DNA from: a virus
Strand: one strand, 5' to 3'
Length of the DNA stretch: 36,962 nucleotides
IMG/VR virus record: IMGVR_UViG_3300013131_002818
Span: 1-36,962 of that record
In this document: piece by piece, positions 4,860-31,564 of the stretch
How positions within the stretch are numbered: position 1 is the stretch's first letter
Layout of the letters: each line of letters opens with the position of its first letter
Notes under the pieces: model-generated
Seen by the model: the letters and a program-made list of their open reading frames with translations, nothing else
What the model was told of the DNA's origin: nothing
Database searches by the model: none
Position numbers and translations under genes: made by a program

Positions 4860-6710
4860 ATGCAGATTGAAGCGAAGATTTTAAGTGATATTACCGTATT
4901 TATGAAGTATGCAAAATTTAATCCTACATTAAATCGCAGAGAAAATTGGAAAGAATTGGTTGATAGAAATAAACAAATGCATTTGGAAAAATTCCCAAAG
5001 TTAAAGAAGGAGATTGAACATGCGTACCAATATGTCTACGATAAGAAAATACTTCCTTCCATGCGCAGTTTGCAGTTTGCTGGGAAACCTATTGCCATTA
5101 ACAACGCTCGTTTGTATAATTGCTGTTTTTTACCTGCTGACCACGTGGACGCATTCTCAGAAATCATGTTCCTGTTGTTGTCAGGAACAGGGGTCGGATA
5201 CTCCGTTCAAAGGCATCATGTAGAAAATCTTCCTGAAATAAATAAGCCAACAAAGAATCGTCGTTACTTGGTCGGTGATAGTATTGAAGGGTGGGCAGAT
5301 GCGGTCAAGGTATTGATGACTGCGTATATGAAGGGTAAGGCAATGCCAATCTACGATTTCACAGATATTCGTCCAAAGGGTGCAATGTTACTAACGAGTG
5401 GCGGTAAGGCACCTGGTCCAGAGCCACTTAAGGATTGTTTACATAATGTTCAAAAGGTTCTTGACCGTAAGCAAAATGGTGAACAACTCACCACGCTTGA
5501 AGTCCACGATATTCTATGCTATATTGCTGATGCTGTTCTTGCTGGTGGAATTCGTCGTTCCGCTATGATTAGTTTATTCGACATTGACGATGATGATATG
5601 TTGACTTGTAAGTTTGGCAACTGGTGGGAAACCAACCCACAACGCGGTCGTGCAAACAACAGTGCTGTCATCGTTCGTTCAAAGGTCGAAGCAGAGACCT
5701 TCTTTGAATTATGGAAGAAGATTGAAGCATCGGGTTCTGGTGAACCTGGCTTCTTCTTCACCAACGATAAAGATTGGGGCATGAATCCTTGTGCAGAAAT
5801 TAGTCTCCGTCCGTTCCAGTTCTGTAACCTCACCACCATCCACGCGGGTGATGTTGAGTCCCAAGAAGATTTGAATGCACGTGCTAAGGCAGCAGCTTTC
5901 ATAGGAACACTACAAGCATCGTACACAGATTTTCACTATTTGAGGGACATATGGAAGAGAACAACAGAAAAGGAAGCACTGATAGGAGTGTCGATGACTG
6001 GAATCGCATCGGGTGGAGTGTTAAAACTCAACATGAAAGAGGCTGCAAATTTGGTGAAGGAAGAAAATGCACGTGTATCGTCTATAATTGGTACGATGCC
6101 AGCGGCCCGCTGCACGACCGTGAAGCCAGAGGGCACATCGTCTCTCGTTTTGGGTACGAGTAGTGGTATTCACGCTTGGCATAATAAGCACTATATTCGT
6201 CGTATCCGTGTTGGTAAGAACGAAAGTATCTACGCATATTTAAAGGCAAATCATCCAGAACTGGTCACCGACGAATACTTTAAGCCAAATATCCAAGCAG
6301 TTATCGAAGTGCCACAAAAGGCACCAGCAGATGCAATTACTCGTCAAGAAAGTGCATTAGACCTTCTTCATCGTACCAGTAAGGTGTGGAAGGAATGGGT
6401 CAAGACAGGTCACAGAAAGGGTGCAAACAAGAATAACGTATCCGTCACGGTGTCTATTAAGGACGGAGAATGGAGGGAAGTTGGTGAATGGATGTGGGAA
6501 AACCGTGACAACTTCACAGCACTATCTGTTCTTCCATACTCAGACCACACCTACATCCAAGCACCATTCGAAGATATTGACGAAGAAACCTACAACGAAT
6601 TAGTTGGTCACTTACATGAAATCAATCTTGATGATGTGGTCGAAGTGGAAGATGTAACAAATCTACAAGGTGAAGCAGCATGTTCCGCTGGTGGATGCGA
6701 AGTATCATAA
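4860..6710 (+). CDS. nrdJ: Class II (adenosylcobalamin-dependent) ribonucleotide reductase, monomeric type
   Basis: Reduces ribonucleotides to deoxyribonucleotides using B12 as radical source, needing neither oxygen nor a small subunit. The radical cysteine is C311 in NPCAEISL, with E313, and C322 follows in FQFCNLT; the 11-residue spacing equals that of Cys408/Cys419 in Lactobacillus leichmannii RTPR. The partner cysteine is C88 or C89 in YNCCF. The C-terminus carries C608/C613 in ACSAGGCEVS, the shuttle pair re-reduced by thioredoxin, with the same spacing as Cys731/Cys736. At 616 residues it is about 120 shorter than RTPR (739), with roughly 66 residues missing between the first and second active-site cysteines. 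A phage thioredoxin gene about 1.4 kb downstream is a plausible reductant. ATG 4860 follows TTGGAGTAACCAA. Confidence 0.93.
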   Translation: MQIEAKILSDITVFMKYAKFNPTLNRRENWKELVDRNKQMHLEKFPKLKKEIEHAYQYVYDKKILPSMRSLQFAGKPIAINNARLYNCCFLPADHVDAFSEIMFLLLSGTGVGYSVQRHHVENLPEINKPTKNRRYLVGDSIEGWADAVKVLMTAYMKGKAMPIYDFTDIRPKGAMLLTSGGKAPGPEPLKDCLHNVQKVLDRKQNGEQLTTLEVHDILCYIADAVLAGGIRRSAMISLFDIDDDDMLTCKFGNWWETNPQRGRANNSAVIVRSKVEAETFFELWKKIEASGSGEPGFFFTNDKDWGMNPCAEISLRPFQFCNLTTIHAGDVESQEDLNARAKAAAFIGTLQASYTDFHYLRDIWKRTTEKEALIGVSMTGIASGGVLKLNMKEAANLVKEENARVSSIIGTMPAARCTTVKPEGTSSLVLGTSSGIHAWHNKHYIRRIRVGKNESIYAYLKANHPELVTDEYFKPNIQAVIEVPQKAPADAITRQESALDLLHRTSKVWKEWVKTGHRKGANKNNVSVTVSIKDGEWREVGEWMWENRDNFTALSVLPYSDHTYIQAPFEDIDEETYNELVGHLHEINLDDVVEVEDVTNLQGEAACSAGGCEVS

Positions 6711-8462: not shown

Positions 8463-8881
8463 TGAAGGTCAAGAAATTATCAGAGAATGCAATCTTACCA
8501 ACCAAGGCACACGCTGGGGACTTGGGATATGATTTATATGCCCAAGCACCGATGGCTATATTTCCTGGGGAAGTAAAATTAGTTTCTACTGGAATATCCG
8601 TTCAATTTCCAGAAGGTTATGGTGCGTTACTTCGTGACCGTTCTTCGGTGGCTACAAAACAATACTTATTTGTAGTGGCTGGTGTAATTGATAACGGATA
8701 TACTGGTGAAATCAAAATCGCTTTATATAATGGTGGTGGGGATGTCGCAAAAATCCAAGAAGGTACAAAGATAGCACAGATGATTTTAGTCCCAACAGTT
8801 AATTTTGAAATTGAAGAAGTCACAGAAACTACATCGGCAGATGGAAGGGGGAGAAATGGATTCGGCTCAACAGGCAACTGA
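8462..8881 (+). CDS. dut: dUTP diphosphatase
   Basis: Trimeric dUTPase hydrolysing dUTP to dUMP, preventing uracil incorporation and feeding dTMP synthesis. The five family motifs are present in 139 residues: AGDLGYDLYA (motif I, about 18-27), RDRSSVA (motif II), GVIDNGYTGEI (motif III, with the base-recognition tyrosine), GTKIAQMILVP (motif IV) and the glycine-rich GRGRNGFGSTG tail (motif V) that closes over the active site. It pairs with the dCMP deaminase at 26.7 kb in pyrimidine metabolism. Its 3' end overlaps the next gene by 26 bases. Confidence 0.96.
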   Translation: MKVKKLSENAILPTKAHAGDLGYDLYAQAPMAIFPGEVKLVSTGISVQFPEGYGALLRDRSSVATKQYLFVVAGVIDNGYTGEIKIALYNGGGDVAKIQEGTKIAQMILVPTVNFEIEEVTETTSADGRGRNGFGSTGN

Positions 8882-9206
8882 TTTTAACATTACCTTTACC
8901 AAAGCAGCACTTGGGGAAATGAAGAAGTTCGCAGAAGCAGAAAATGCAAACTACTTCCGTGTATCTGTATTACCAGGTGGATGTTCTGGTTTCAAATACG
9001 ATTTCAATTTAATAGACAATCCAGAAGAAGATGATGTAGTAATTGAACAAGAAAATGGAGTAAAGGTAGTTATAGACCCATTCTCTACATCATATCTCAA
9101 CGGAACATTAGTACATTATGTGATGTCCATGCAGGCATCGGGATTCACATTCCAGAACCCGAACTCAACAGCAAAATGTGGTTGCGGAAGTAGTTTCGCA
9201 GCGTAA
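8856..9206 (+). CDS. A-type iron-sulfur carrier (IscA/ErpA/HesB family)
   Basis: A 116-residue protein with the three invariant family cysteines: C43 in PGGCSGFKY and C108/C110 in KCGCGSSF at the C-terminus. The family binds Fe-S clusters or iron and delivers them to apoproteins. I use ATG 8856, after the purine-rich AAGGGGGAGAA; a longer reading upstream has no homology. It overlaps dut and is followed 9 bases later by a 2OG-Fe(II) oxygenase, so iron handling is a possible shared theme. The true client is unknown; the PD-(D/E)XK nuclease at 28 kb has a cysteine cluster that might carry an Fe-S centre. Confidence 0.93.
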   Translation: MDSAQQATDFNITFTKAALGEMKKFAEAENANYFRVSVLPGGCSGFKYDFNLIDNPEEDDVVIEQENGVKVVIDPFSTSYLNGTLVHYVMSMQASGFTFQNPNSTAKCGCGSSFAA

Positions 9207-9215
9207 GGAGGTTTT

Positions 9216-9782
9216 ATGACAAAGAAGGTTGTAAACTGGCTATTTCAAGTACCCGTAGGAATTTATGACTTATCATATCTTGTAACAGAAAATATCAATA
9301 AAACGTTACAAGGTATCGGGTACACTGAAAATGATTTGGTTGATGGTATTCGGGGTAATCAAGACCCAAGTAAACTACCAGAACTCAAATATTTGTATGA
9401 TGAGTTTCAAAAGTACGTAGACGATTATTCAGCAGAAATAGGTATTCAAACAAGTTATATTTACGAAAGCTGGATGAATATTTTAACTATGAATGGTTCT
9501 GTTGGTGTACATCGTCACTATGAAAGTGTAATCAGCGCAGCATATTACCCATACGTTGATGAAGGAAGTGCACCAATCGTATTCGTTAGTGCAACAGAAG
9601 GATACAGGATGTTGGATGTACAACACACAGCACCTAACGCTCCTGGAAAATATACGTCAAATGTAGAAAGGGTAGAAGCAAAGACAGGTCAACTCGTGTT
9701 ATTCCCAGGGTGGTTACAACATTATGTCCCACCCAATAAAACTAATATGAGAATCACTTTAAGTTTCAACACCAAATACTAA
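9216..9782 (+). CDS. 2-oxoglutarate/Fe(II)-dependent oxygenase
   Basis: A 188-residue protein of the phage-abundant 2OG-Fe(II) oxygenase group resembling TIGR02466. Probable ligands are H99 and H101 in VGVHRHYES, H169 in PGWLQHYVPP and R179 in NMRITLSFN, the 2OG-binding arginine. The FPGWLQHYVPPN signature is characteristic. Such enzymes hydroxylate proteins, nucleic acids or small molecules; the substrate here is unknown. A very strong ribosome binding site, AAGGAGG, precedes the ATG. Two other possible iron-dependent hydroxylases are encoded at 17547 and 19366. Confidence 0.82.
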   Translation: MTKKVVNWLFQVPVGIYDLSYLVTENINKTLQGIGYTENDLVDGIRGNQDPSKLPELKYLYDEFQKYVDDYSAEIGIQTSYIYESWMNILTMNGSVGVHRHYESVISAAYYPYVDEGSAPIVFVSATEGYRMLDVQHTAPNAPGKYTSNVERVEAKTGQLVLFPGWLQHYVPPNKTNMRITLSFNTKY

Positions 9783-9804
9783 TATATGAACCTTTTGATT
9801 ACGT

Positions 9805-10191
9805 ATGGCTCGTAAAAAACAAGAGAAACGAGTAATAGGTAACAAAATTGAGAAAACGGTTTCGACAATACTAACGAGATTAAATCTTCCATTTGAAGAG
9901 CAAGTCTCGGTAGACAAATATACCGTTGACTTTTTGGTAAATAGGAAGTATATTGTTGAATGTTATGGTGACTTCTGGCACTGTAATCCACAGCAATATA
10001 CTTCTTCGTATTTTAATCGTGGTAAAAAGAAAACTGCGGAAGAAATATGGCAACGAGATACAGAACGAAAAAAGAAATTTGAAGAAATGGGATATAAGTT
10101 TCTGTGTTTGTGGGAAAATGATATACGAAACAATCCCAAGATTATTCAGTCAAAAATAAAGAAACACATAAAATTAGATGAGGGGTTATGA
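9805..10191 (+). CDS. Vsr-like / EDxHD-family endonuclease
   Basis: A 128-residue nuclease of the very-short-patch-repair fold. Features in order: E31/E32 (LPFEEQ), D42 in the strand TVDFLVN, ECYGDFWHCNP (52-62), and the C-terminal RDTERKKKFEEMGYKFLCLWEND that aligns with the RD....GW.V..WE end of Vsr proteins. D42, D56 and H59 are the likely catalytic set. Phage proteins of this type include free-standing homing endonucleases such as I-Bth0305I, so it may be a selfish homing gene instead of a mismatch nickase. There is no clear ribosome binding site before the ATG, and its stop overlaps the next start. Confidence 0.75.
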   Translation: MARKKQEKRVIGNKIEKTVSTILTRLNLPFEEQVSVDKYTVDFLVNRKYIVECYGDFWHCNPQQYTSSYFNRGKKKTAEEIWQRDTERKKKFEEMGYKFLCLWENDIRNNPKIIQSKIKKHIKLDEGL

Positions 10192-10619
10192 GAATTTTGT
10201 TATTTGGATTACCTGGTTCTGGAAAGACTACATTAGCAGAAAAATTAGTAAAGCTTCTCCCCAACGCAGGACATTTAAACGCCGATGCCATCCGTAAGGC
10301 ATTCGAGGATTGGGATTTTAGCCCAGCGGGTCGAGCACGTCAAGCATTACGTATGCGGACGATGGCTGATAACTTATTAGAAGATCGTGTAGATTATGTG
10401 GTCGCAGATTTCGTGGCTCCAACTCGTGAGTTACGTGCAATCTACGAACCACATTTTTGTGTATGGATGGACACGATTACCGAAGGACGCTTTGAAGATA
10501 CGAACAAGGCGTGGCAAGTCCCACAAGCGGACGAATACAATATTCGTATCACTGAATTCAACTCAGATATAGAGGCAGAAAAACTATGCAATTTAATTCT
10601 AAAGCACCCACGGGGTTGA
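10188..10619 (+). CDS. Adenylylsulfate (APS) kinase-like P-loop protein
   Basis: A 143-residue P-loop kinase with Walker A GLPGSGKT at 7-14 and the CysC-like segment LNADAIRKAF followed by SPAGRARQALRM, which corresponds to the APS-binding part of APS kinases. If active it would phosphorylate APS to PAPS, the universal sulfate donor. It is shorter than most CysC proteins (about 175-200). The C-terminal part (PTRELRAIYEP, WMDTITEGRFEDTNKAW) is compatible with the family but diverged, so another small-molecule kinase is possible. It overlaps an HxGH nucleotidyltransferase by 34 bases. Two sulfotransferase-like genes at 24.0 and 25.5 kb could be PAPS consumers. Confidence 0.7.
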   Translation: MRILLFGLPGSGKTTLAEKLVKLLPNAGHLNADAIRKAFEDWDFSPAGRARQALRMRTMADNLLEDRVDYVVADFVAPTRELRAIYEPHFCVWMDTITEGRFEDTNKAWQVPQADEYNIRITEFNSDIEAEKLCNLILKHPRG

Positions 10620-28874: not shown

Positions 28875-29357
28875 TTCTACAGGATTTAGATATACGATAC
28901 ATACTATCCGCTTACAGGTTGGTGCATGAAACGATATTTACATTACCATCATACAGTAAAGCTGGTAGTGAAGAGCAGATATTAGTTTATACTCCTAATA
29001 GGTTGATTGAACACATAGAAAATCCTGACCGACTGAATACAGTAGTAATAGATAGTGGTGAAGTAGTTGGATTCTGTTTTGGTGTAGTAGAAAGATTACC
29101 AAACGCAAATATGTTTTACTTGGAATGGAATGGTGTGAATCCAACATATAGAAATAAAGGTATGATGCAATCTATGTGGAACAGAATTGATGAGTGGTCA
29201 CATAAAAAACAATTGGACGGTGTTCTTGTAGATACACTGACCAACAATCAAAAAAATGATTAAGTTTTTACAGAAGAATAATATGAACATCTGGGCAGAA
29301 ACAAAAAATCACTGGTATGGACAAGACTACTTTCTTTGGGGAAAACTGTATGGATGA
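28871..29357 (+). pseudogene. GNAT acetyltransferase split by a +1 frameshift at an A7 run
   Basis: Residues 1-130 (GTG 28871 to TAA 29263) form most of a GNAT domain: VVIDSGEVVGFCFGVVER, LEWNGVNPTYRNKGMMQSMW (acetyl-CoA-binding RxxGxx as RNKGMM) and DGVLVDTLTNNQK. The reading stops there, but the frame beginning ATG 29256 encodes 33 residues (MIKFLQKNNMNIWAETKNHW then YGQDYFLWGKLYG) that are the normal GNAT C-terminus. Removing one A from the seven at 29250-29256 fuses them as NNQKMIKFLQ. So this is a sequencing error, a genuine mutation, or slippage-dependent expression. Substrate unknown. Confidence 0.75.
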
Positions 29358-29961
29358 GAATCCTATGGTAAATTATTCCAAAATAATTGCCGACACTGCA
29401 AGTAACCATTACAATGTACGGGACGAGTATAAGACAAATACCTACGAACAGAATGTTGCCATCACCATAAGTGAGCAACGCAGGTTCTCTGTGGGTTGTA
29501 TCAACATCACAGGTGAGTTGAATGTGGGAATGATGATTCGTTCGGCGTGTCTTTTTGGGGCTGAGAATTTTTATATCTTTGGACGTAAGAAATTTGATAA
29601 ACGTAGCACTGTAGGTGCTGAGAAATATATTAATATCGTCCAATATACTTTTGATGACCCGATGACCGCCGACGAACTCATTCTCAATCAGTTGAAGTTG
29701 ATGCACCACAATATTGTGTTGTGTGAGCATGGTGGATATGAGTTGAATGCAAAGAACCACAAGTTTCATTCTTCGCTTCATAAGAACGGAGATACTCCAC
29801 TCTTTGTGTTTGGGTCGGAGAGTCATGGAATTCCAGAGGCTATTCGGTTCGCAAACCTTGAGCGTATCAGTATTCCGCAACGTGGAGTTCTTCGGTCATA
29901 CAATGTAAGTGCCGCAATGAATATCATTTGTTGGGATTATGTTAAGGAGATGTATCTGTGA
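29350..29961 (+). CDS. SpoU/TrmH-type (SPOUT) RNA 2'-O-methyltransferase
   Basis: A 203-residue SPOUT methyltransferase, predicted to 2'-O-methylate tRNA or rRNA with S-adenosylmethionine. Motif 1 is NITGELNVGMMIRSACLFGA (conserved N and R), motif 2 FVFGSESHGIP (conserved E) and motif 3 ISIPQRGVLRSYNVSAAMNI, which forms the cofactor knot. ATG 29350 follows GGGGAAAA and overlaps the fused GNAT reading; an in-frame ATG at 29317 lacks a ribosome binding site. Its end overlaps the selA start by 4 bases, tying it to an RNA-linked function. Target nucleotide unknown. Confidence 0.88.
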   Translation: MDENPMVNYSKIIADTASNHYNVRDEYKTNTYEQNVAITISEQRRFSVGCINITGELNVGMMIRSACLFGAENFYIFGRKKFDKRSTVGAEKYINIVQYTFDDPMTADELILNQLKLMHHNIVLCEHGGYELNAKNHKFHSSLHKNGDTPLFVFGSESHGIPEAIRFANLERISIPQRGVLRSYNVSAAMNIICWDYVKEMYL

Positions 29962-31292
29962 GCTTTGTTCGGTTTCCAAAGGTAAGTACTATATTGGAAA
30001 GTAGTCCAGTACAAAAGTGTATCACCAACTGGACGCATACAATGGTACGAGATGCTATCCGTGAGATTATCTCTGTTGCACGAACGGGTGGTGATTTACC
30101 TGTGGATTATGAAAGCTGGGCAGTTGTAATAGATGGATACTTGACAGAACATACGAAACCTTCACTACGTCCAGTTATCAATGCCACTGGTGTTATTCTT
30201 CATACAAATCTTGGACGAGCACCATTAGCACAAGCAGCACTTGATGCAATCAATATGGTGTCGTCTGGTGGTTCTACATTAGAATATGATTTGGAAACTG
30301 GTAAACGCGGTTCTAGACACGTACATGCATCGGCAATCTTGACCGAACTAACAGGTGCAGAAGATGCATTGGTGGTCAACAACTGCGCAGCAGGATTAGT
30401 GTTGGCACTACAAACCTTATGTGCTGGTAAAGAAACCTTGGTGAGTCGTGGAGAACTTGTAGAAATCGGTGGAAGCTTCCGTGTTCCAGAGATTATGGCA
30501 GCAAGTGGTACAAAGTTAGTTGAAGTAGGAACAACTAATCGTACACACCCAGATGATTATAGAAACGCGATTACACCGAACACCGCAGCGATTGTAAAGG
30601 TACATCGTAGCAACTTTACAATGGACGGGTTTGTATCCGAGGTTGATATTCCCACATTAGTCCCTATCGCAGAGGAAGCAGGTATTCCACTCATTCACGA
30701 TTTCGGTAGTGGATTGATGATGGATTTAAGTACGTGGGGACTAACAGGAGAGTTGACCGCACAAGACGCAGTACGGCAGAACCCTACATTAGTGATTATG
30801 AGTGGGGATAAATTATTGGGTGGACCGCAGGCAGGTATTATCTTGGGGAAGAAAGATGTTATTGCCAAGTTAAAAAAGCATCCAATGGCTAGAGCATTAC
30901 GAGTGGATAAGTTGACCTTCTCCGCATTAGAAGCTACCTTAGCGTTATACAGAAATACTAATAAAGCTTTATTACAAATACCTGCGTTATTAATGTTGAC
31001 TACTGACGCAGAAACTATTAGATTTAGAGCAGAGACGATAGCAGAACACGTTGGTGGAAAGGTAGAACGGAGTGAAGCTACGGTAGGTGGGGGAGCATTC
31101 CCTACGTCTAAAATACCTTCGTGGTCGGTGGTGTTAAGTGGGGATGCAATGGACATAGAACAACGTTTACGTGGGTTGCATATTCCAGTCATCACTCGTA
31201 TTATTGATAATAAGGTATGGTTAGACATTCGCAGTGTATTACCCAAGGATGATGGACTATTGATTACACTTATACGGAAGATATATTTATGA
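29958..31292 (+). CDS. selA: L-seryl-tRNA(Sec) selenium transferase (selenocysteine synthase)
   Basis: PLP enzyme converting Ser-tRNA(Sec) to Sec-tRNA(Sec) with selenophosphate. The 444-residue protein (E. coli SelA 463) is full length: N-terminal tRNA-binding region with FPKVSTILES, then RPVINATGVILHTNLGRAPL (71-90), GSTLEYDLETGKRGSRHVH (105-123), SRGELVEIGGSFRVP (163-177), GTTNRTHPDDYRNA (191-204) and SGDKLLGGPQAGIILGKK (282-299) with PLP lysine K285, ending with RALRVDKLT (312-320) and PVITRIIDNKVWLDIR. The start is GTG 29958 after AAGGAG. No SelB, SelD or tRNA(Sec) is visible in the window. A related non-Sec PLP enzyme is possible but the N-terminus favours SelA. Confidence 0.93.
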   Translation: MSFVRFPKVSTILESSPVQKCITNWTHTMVRDAIREIISVARTGGDLPVDYESWAVVIDGYLTEHTKPSLRPVINATGVILHTNLGRAPLAQAALDAINMVSSGGSTLEYDLETGKRGSRHVHASAILTELTGAEDALVVNNCAAGLVLALQTLCAGKETLVSRGELVEIGGSFRVPEIMAASGTKLVEVGTTNRTHPDDYRNAITPNTAAIVKVHRSNFTMDGFVSEVDIPTLVPIAEEAGIPLIHDFGSGLMMDLSTWGLTGELTAQDAVRQNPTLVIMSGDKLLGGPQAGIILGKKDVIAKLKKHPMARALRVDKLTFSALEATLALYRNTNKALLQIPALLMLTTDAETIRFRAETIAEHVGGKVERSEATVGGGAFPTSKIPSWSVVLSGDAMDIEQRLRGLHIPVITRIIDNKVWLDIRSVLPKDDGLLITLIRKIYL

Positions 31293-31564
31293 TACCACAA
31301 GAAACCGCTGGATTGATTCTCGCTGTTAAACAAGCAACAGCGTCAAACGAAAAGCTCCAACGTAAGGTTGAAGTGTATGAAGCAGTTCTTCGTCAACTCA
31401 ATGCGTATGGCAACTTAGTGGTTGACCATAATAAGATGCGGGAACTGATGGTGGCGATTATGGAATGGCAGTATGCACTACGAGGTGGAGAACAAACCGA
31501 ATATGAATACGAAACCTGTGTGCAACTGGCGTTTGAGAGAATGGCAAATAAGGTGGGGTTATGA
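31289..31564 (+). CDS. Small helical protein of unknown function
   Basis: A 91-residue, mostly helical protein (MIPQETAGLILAVKQATASN then NEKLQRKVEVYEAVLRQLNA), with a possible short coiled coil at 20-40 and a second helix ending FERMANKVGL. It overlaps the selA stop by 4 bases, so it is co-translated with selA. I recognise no family. Confidence 0.72.
   Translation: MIPQETAGLILAVKQATASNEKLQRKVEVYEAVLRQLNAYGNLVVDHNKMRELMVAIMEWQYALRGGEQTEYEYETCVQLAFERMANKVGL

Follow-up and report, generated by a model that had tools for sequence, protein, structure and literature searches.

A full-length selenocysteine synthase gene, selA, is carried by a T4-type phage in the DNA analyzed here (the window, meaning the whole stretch of 36,962 bases; as a linear virus record it is a fragment, and more than 100 kb of this phage lies beyond it). 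The ORF at positions 29958–31292 very probably encodes a functional selenocysteine (Sec) synthase of the bacterial type, which would have been acquired from Gemmatimonadota, kept under purifying selection, and used to raise or replace the Sec-tRNA(Sec) capacity of the host. At the sequence level, the identity of the enzyme, its intact catalytic and tRNA-binding parts, its location in a phage genome, and its Gemmatimonadota origin are established. A syntenic sister phage, G001, carries a second SelA together with a selenophosphate synthetase (SelD) and a tRNA-Sec. The enzymes belong to known families, and the novelty lies in their assembly in one phage lineage, whose members seem to supply the cells they infect with components of the selenocysteine pathway.

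The phage selA gene and its surroundings

The selA gene (29958–31292, plus strand) encodes 444 amino acids, with a GTG start codon at 29958, a TGA stop codon at 31290–31292, and, as read from the sequence, a strong Shine-Dalgarno motif AAGGAG (29944–29949, plus strand) located 8 nt upstream of the GTG. The predicted protein matches the Pfam SelA family (PF03841) at 452 bits and the NCBIfam equivalog TIGR00474 at 535 bits over residues 5–440 of 444, approximately twice the curated cut-off of 267.9 bits, while its scores for the related ammonia-lyase families are far under their cut-offs. Its residues were checked by alignment to the solved SelA of Aquifex aeolicus (3w1h) and to an enterobacterial SelA (8uzw), with the catalytic, selenophosphate, and inter-dimer roles assigned according to PMC4607533. 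The phage SelA contains SGDKLLGGPQAG with the PLP lysine, Lys285, and the selenophosphate arginines R87, R312, and R315 (R86, R312, and R315 in A. aeolicus). The residues equivalent to A. aeolicus Arg119, Asp284, Ser217, and Ser282, among them the PLP-contacting serines, are all conserved in the alignment. Four of the five inter-dimer residues of the decamer are retained (R175, T192, T193, and D200, corresponding to A. aeolicus R174, T191, T192, and D199); the fifth, Tyr220, is replaced by threonine, and this tyrosine is also missing in the aligned Gemmatimonadota SelAs. Residues 5–60 align to the N-terminal tRNA-Sec domain of 8uzw and of Gemmatimonadota SelA, a domain that is missing in SelA homologues not involved in Sec decoding (PMC4607533). 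The original prediction, which described a complete SelA with a PLP lysine and an N-terminal tRNA-binding region and proposed an HMM search, is borne out by the full-length equivalog match above the cut-off and by these residues.

The gene overlaps both of its neighbors by 4 bases. The stop codon of a SpoU-family 2'-O-methyltransferase gene (29317–29961, plus strand) overlaps the selA start (GTGA), and the start codon of a gene for a small helical protein of 91 amino acids (31289–31564, plus strand) overlaps the selA stop (ATGA). The flanking genes, as assigned by PHROGs, are of T4 type and encode a gp32-like SSB, UvsX, a DnaB-like helicase, a DNA polymerase, a clamp, and a clamp loader, which together with the overlaps confirms that SelA is embedded in a T4-type phage genome, as originally described. 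Elsewhere in the window, an A-type iron-sulfur carrier gene (ErpA/IscA/SufA-like, 8805–9206) has a thioredoxin gene nearby and lies downstream of a B12-dependent ribonucleotide reductase gene (4860–6710).

A search of viral contigs using the SpoU neighbor found at least 27 relatives that keep SpoU, and SelA is absent beside SpoU in all 27 relatives found in this way. The gene following SpoU is adenylyltransferase-like in one relative (L012) and zinc-peptidase-like in another (L005), names that come from reading the sequences, and in G001 a shorter homologue of the helical protein directly follows SpoU, leaving an empty site. Positions 29961–31289 of the window and the equivalent places in L005, L012, and G001 make up a cargo site whose gene differs by relative. 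Since different genes follow SpoU among the relatives, the link between SpoU and selA is positional, and the site is a variable cargo site. The proposed co-translation of selA with SpoU stands as far as the overlapping gene layout is concerned, but a functional coupling of the two proteins was rejected because the 27 relatives have SpoU without SelA. No tRNA-Sec, SECIS-like RNA, SelB, or SelD was found within the 36,962-base window, in agreement with what had been noted from the sequence at the outset.

The sister phage G001 and the Gemmatimonadota origin

A single-protein SelA search of viral contigs gave no match, and a degenerate motif scan for GDKLLGGPQ in viral records found one other SelA contig, G001 (IMGVR_UViG_3300035670_000038, a fragment of 131,302 bases). 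G001 is syntenic to the entire window, with protein identities mostly of 70–97%. Its SelA lies at 74.5 kb, at a different position from the window SelA, with which it shares 53% identity; the genes flanking the insertion are adjacent in another relative (G004), which has the empty site. G001 also encodes a SelD (377 bits against a cut-off of 125) and a tRNA-Sec (RF01852, 57.7 bits against a cut-off of 47) that folds into a cloverleaf with an 8-bp acceptor stem, a 5-bp T stem, an extra arm, and the anticodon UCA. At least 24 further tRNA genes are present in G001, and the tRNA-Sec is located about 34 kb away from the tRNA cluster. SelD and tRNA-Sec are thus present in the phage lineage through G001 and not in the 37-kb window fragment. 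No SelB match was obtained for either fragment (the window and the 131-kb G001 contig). In nine further long relatives, SelA is absent and no tRNA-Sec exceeds the cut-off. About 50 kb known from relatives is not in the G001 contig and is probably mainly structural, given the T4-type gene order in those relatives; two contigs from the metagenome of G001 (L177 and L255) are not evidently its missing part. A SelD motif scan of viral contigs gave eight further matches, none of which was SelD by tblastn.

The nearest bacterial relatives of the window SelA are Gemmatimonadota SelAs, with an identity of up to 66% (63–66% for the closest genes). The comparison set consisted of 395 publicly available Gemmatimonadota genome assemblies, many reconstructed from metagenomes, and SelA was found in 278 of the 395. 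In the IQ-TREE phylogeny, the window SelA fell inside a Gemmatimonadota clade of seven rows (support 100/96), and its nesting within Gemmatimonadota is supported by nodes of 100/96 and 100/99. The tree placement proposed in the original prediction therefore puts the protein within bona fide Gemmatimonadota SelA and not with non-Sec PLP enzymes. The G001 SelA was placed elsewhere in the Gemmatimonadota tree, with weaker support. A joint clade of the two phage SelAs was rejected by the AU test (p = 0.006, with the caveat of the long G001 branch). The AU test and the differing genomic sites agree in suggesting that these phages acquired SelA on two separate occasions. The G001 SelD also grouped with Gemmatimonadota (95/95). 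Each of the nine bacterial sequences in its clade has an in-frame TGA (Sec) at the catalytic position, where the phage protein has cysteine; with this replacement, the phage copy would need no Sec for its own synthesis.

The third codon positions of the phage genes are AT-rich, with a GC3 of 0.32 for the window selA and 0.29 for the G001 selA versus 0.91–0.96 for the bacterial relatives. Between the window selA and the nearest bacterial gene, pN was 0.26 and pS was 0.95, the latter being saturated. The near-complete change at silent sites, together with the conservation of the protein, suggests that the genes have long been resident in phages.

Several other viral records were encountered in the searches. 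One apparent viral SelA (L004, IMGVR_UViG_3300033168_000020) was rejected as the end of a provirus running into a bacterial selC-selA region; at positions 9600–10307 of that record, the provirus end adjoins a tRNA-Sec-like gene, after which comes a bacterial selA; this arrangement suggests that the provirus integrated at the tRNA-Sec gene. Similar bacterial-type tRNA-Sec genes occur in L200, L210, L223, L236, and L264. L203, L209, L229, L247, L286, and others encode tRNAs with a UCA anticodon whose variable arm is long and whose acceptor stem apparently has 7 bp, in contrast to the canonical tRNA-Sec of G001; these tRNAs are possible opal suppressors.

Proposed role in the host and alternative explanations

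The origin of the genes suggests that the host is a Sec-using member of Gemmatimonadota. Among Gemmatimonadota with SelA, SelB scored above the cut-off in five of six genomes and a tRNA-Sec was found in 19 of 19, often adjoining selD. Formate dehydrogenase was ruled out as the host selenoprotein, since it is absent from those Gemmatimonadota whose genes are closest to the phage copies. Of 11 genomes tested, most, and among them those with the genes closest to the phage copies, encode a Prx-like protein containing a single in-frame TGA; in all six sequences read, the TGA lies within the motif TGGU (U, Sec). No homologue of this protein was found in the phages searched. The Prx-like in-frame TGA protein occurs in G303, G261, G107, and further Gemmatimonadota, most of which also have a SelD with Sec. 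In the open-licence literature, no dedicated description of Sec use in Gemmatimonadota was found.

Most likely, the phage produces Sec-tRNA(Sec) or adds to its supply inside a Gemmatimonadota cell, relying on the SelB of that host. During infection, the phage SelA would convert Ser-tRNA(Sec) and selenophosphate into Sec-tRNA(Sec), raising or replacing the host capacity, with SerRS and SelB presumably supplied by the host and, in at least one sister (G001), SelD and tRNA-Sec supplied by the phage as well. The additional Sec-tRNA(Sec) may serve UGA decoding while host expression fails. Host selenoproteins could benefit, such as the Prx-like TGGU protein and the SelD of related Gemmatimonadota, as could, additionally or instead, an unseen selenoprotein of the phage; the Prx-like protein may in this way be tied to phage growth.

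It is conceivable, and we put it forward only tentatively, that T4-type Gemmatimonadota phages equipped with SelA, a Sec-free SelD, and tRNA-Sec recode UGA to produce their own selenoprotein, with SelB and SerRS as the only components taken from the host. The related explanation that the phages carry a near-complete Sec system for their own selenoprotein, encoded in the uncovered parts of both phages, is possible but doubtful. The co-occurrence of SelA, SelD, and tRNA-Sec in G001 is in its favor, the two independent SelA acquisitions suggest a steady need, and the G001 contig lacks some of the genes found in its relatives. However, the end that is missing probably carries mainly structural genes, judging from the T4-type gene order in relatives, and scans for in-frame TGA codons with conserved flanks or Cys homologues revealed nothing convincing in either incomplete genome (the window and 131 kb of G001). 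These scans compared TGA read-through with relatives in filtered versions, as the unfiltered version mostly gave shadow ORFs, and one Cys-rich reading at position 81098 of G001 was discarded on account of its overlap with a longer gene. The G001 set might instead be a collection of spare parts in which tRNA-Sec, SelA, and SelD restore host Sec decoding after a tRNA-targeting defense, rather than answering a metabolic need. G001 does belong to a tRNA-rich phage group, but a single cleaved tRNA could be restored without SelA and SelD, and the distance between its tRNA-Sec and the tRNA cluster also makes this explanation improbable.

A repurposed SelA, catalyzing a PLP reaction without tRNA-Sec or acting on another aminoacyl-tRNA, is a still less probable explanation. 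The window itself holds no other Sec gene, and other roles have been proposed for orphan SelAs such as that of Helicobacter pylori (PMC4607533). However, neither the N-terminal tRNA-Sec domain nor the inter-dimer residues are present in these orphans, whereas the phage SelA has the domain and the equivalents of Arg174, Thr191, Thr192, and Asp199; its position within Gemmatimonadota SelA and the tRNA-Sec and SelD of the sister phage further disfavor repurposing. The suggestion in the original prediction that the enzyme might act on another aminoacyl-tRNA is accordingly unlikely, given the intact domain and the G001 tRNA-Sec. Least credible of all is that a bacterial selA was placed in the phage contig by assembly chimerism or host contamination. 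Such errors have a precedent in the UNVERIFIED record of Pseudomonas phage Y11 (OQ572412.1, L002), where the SelA match is surrounded, in the stretch read, by bacterial formate dehydrogenase, selA, and selB genes and is probably bacterial DNA; the SelA matches of phage collections, from Y11 and from Salmonella, were bacterial DNA in those checked. The window selA differs in its 4-base overlaps at both ends, its phage-like GC3, and its identity of no more than 66% to every bacterial SelA found, and the syntenic G001 has an independent SelA as well as SelD and tRNA-Sec. The reading as a phage gene rather than a host-contig chimera is upheld on these grounds, and a Sec synthase that augments Sec-tRNA(Sec) formation in the host is the interpretation preferred here.

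Comparison with known systems

Genes for tRNAs and for metabolic functions are familiar cargo of phage genomes. PHROGs contains no SelA family, and in the open-licence literature no earlier report was found of a phage genome with SelA, SelD, and tRNA-Sec together, nor of enzymes for a non-standard amino acid in a phage genome. The initial assertion that selenocysteine machinery in phages is rare or undescribed is nearly right; it needs amendment in that a viral annotation of EC 2.9.1.1 has been given for hydrothermal vent viromes, where, in the passages concerning this enzyme, L-seryl-tRNA selenium transferase is said to fill a gap in microbial selenocysteine synthesis (PMC5513705). As presented in those passages, that annotation is a KEGG-level virome assignment without a phage genome, gene neighborhood, phylogeny, SelD, or tRNA-Sec.

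The two SelA gains, along with SelD and tRNA-Sec in one sister, argue that these phages either are limited by the supply of Sec or take advantage of it. This would tie selenium to the infection of a common but little-studied phylum and provides a predicted host for the phage group. The change from Sec to Cys in the phage SelD illustrates a way in which a virus could make a borrowed pathway independent of the very product that it yields. If a phage selenoprotein is indeed made by UGA recoding, use of the 21st amino acid would in this case be driven by a phage.

Like the window selA, the orphan selA of H. pylori has no sel genes nearby, but the H. pylori protein has lost the N-terminal tRNA domain and the inter-dimer contacts (PMC4607533), whereas in the phage SelA the domain is present and the contacts are largely preserved. 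The phage copy has the same domain order and the same catalytic and selenophosphate residues as bacterial SelA of the Gemmatimonadota branch (TIGR00474/PF03841), and differs from Gemmatimonadota selA in its AT-rich third codon positions and in having no selB, selD, or tRNA-Sec adjacent to it. The window phage and G001 both carry a phage SelA, and G001 additionally has the Cys-form SelD and tRNA-Sec. Huge phages from wastewater have also been reported to carry tRNA-Sec genes, with SelA unmentioned in the text of that report (PMC10747093), and would resemble G001 in encoding a selenocysteine tRNA of their own.
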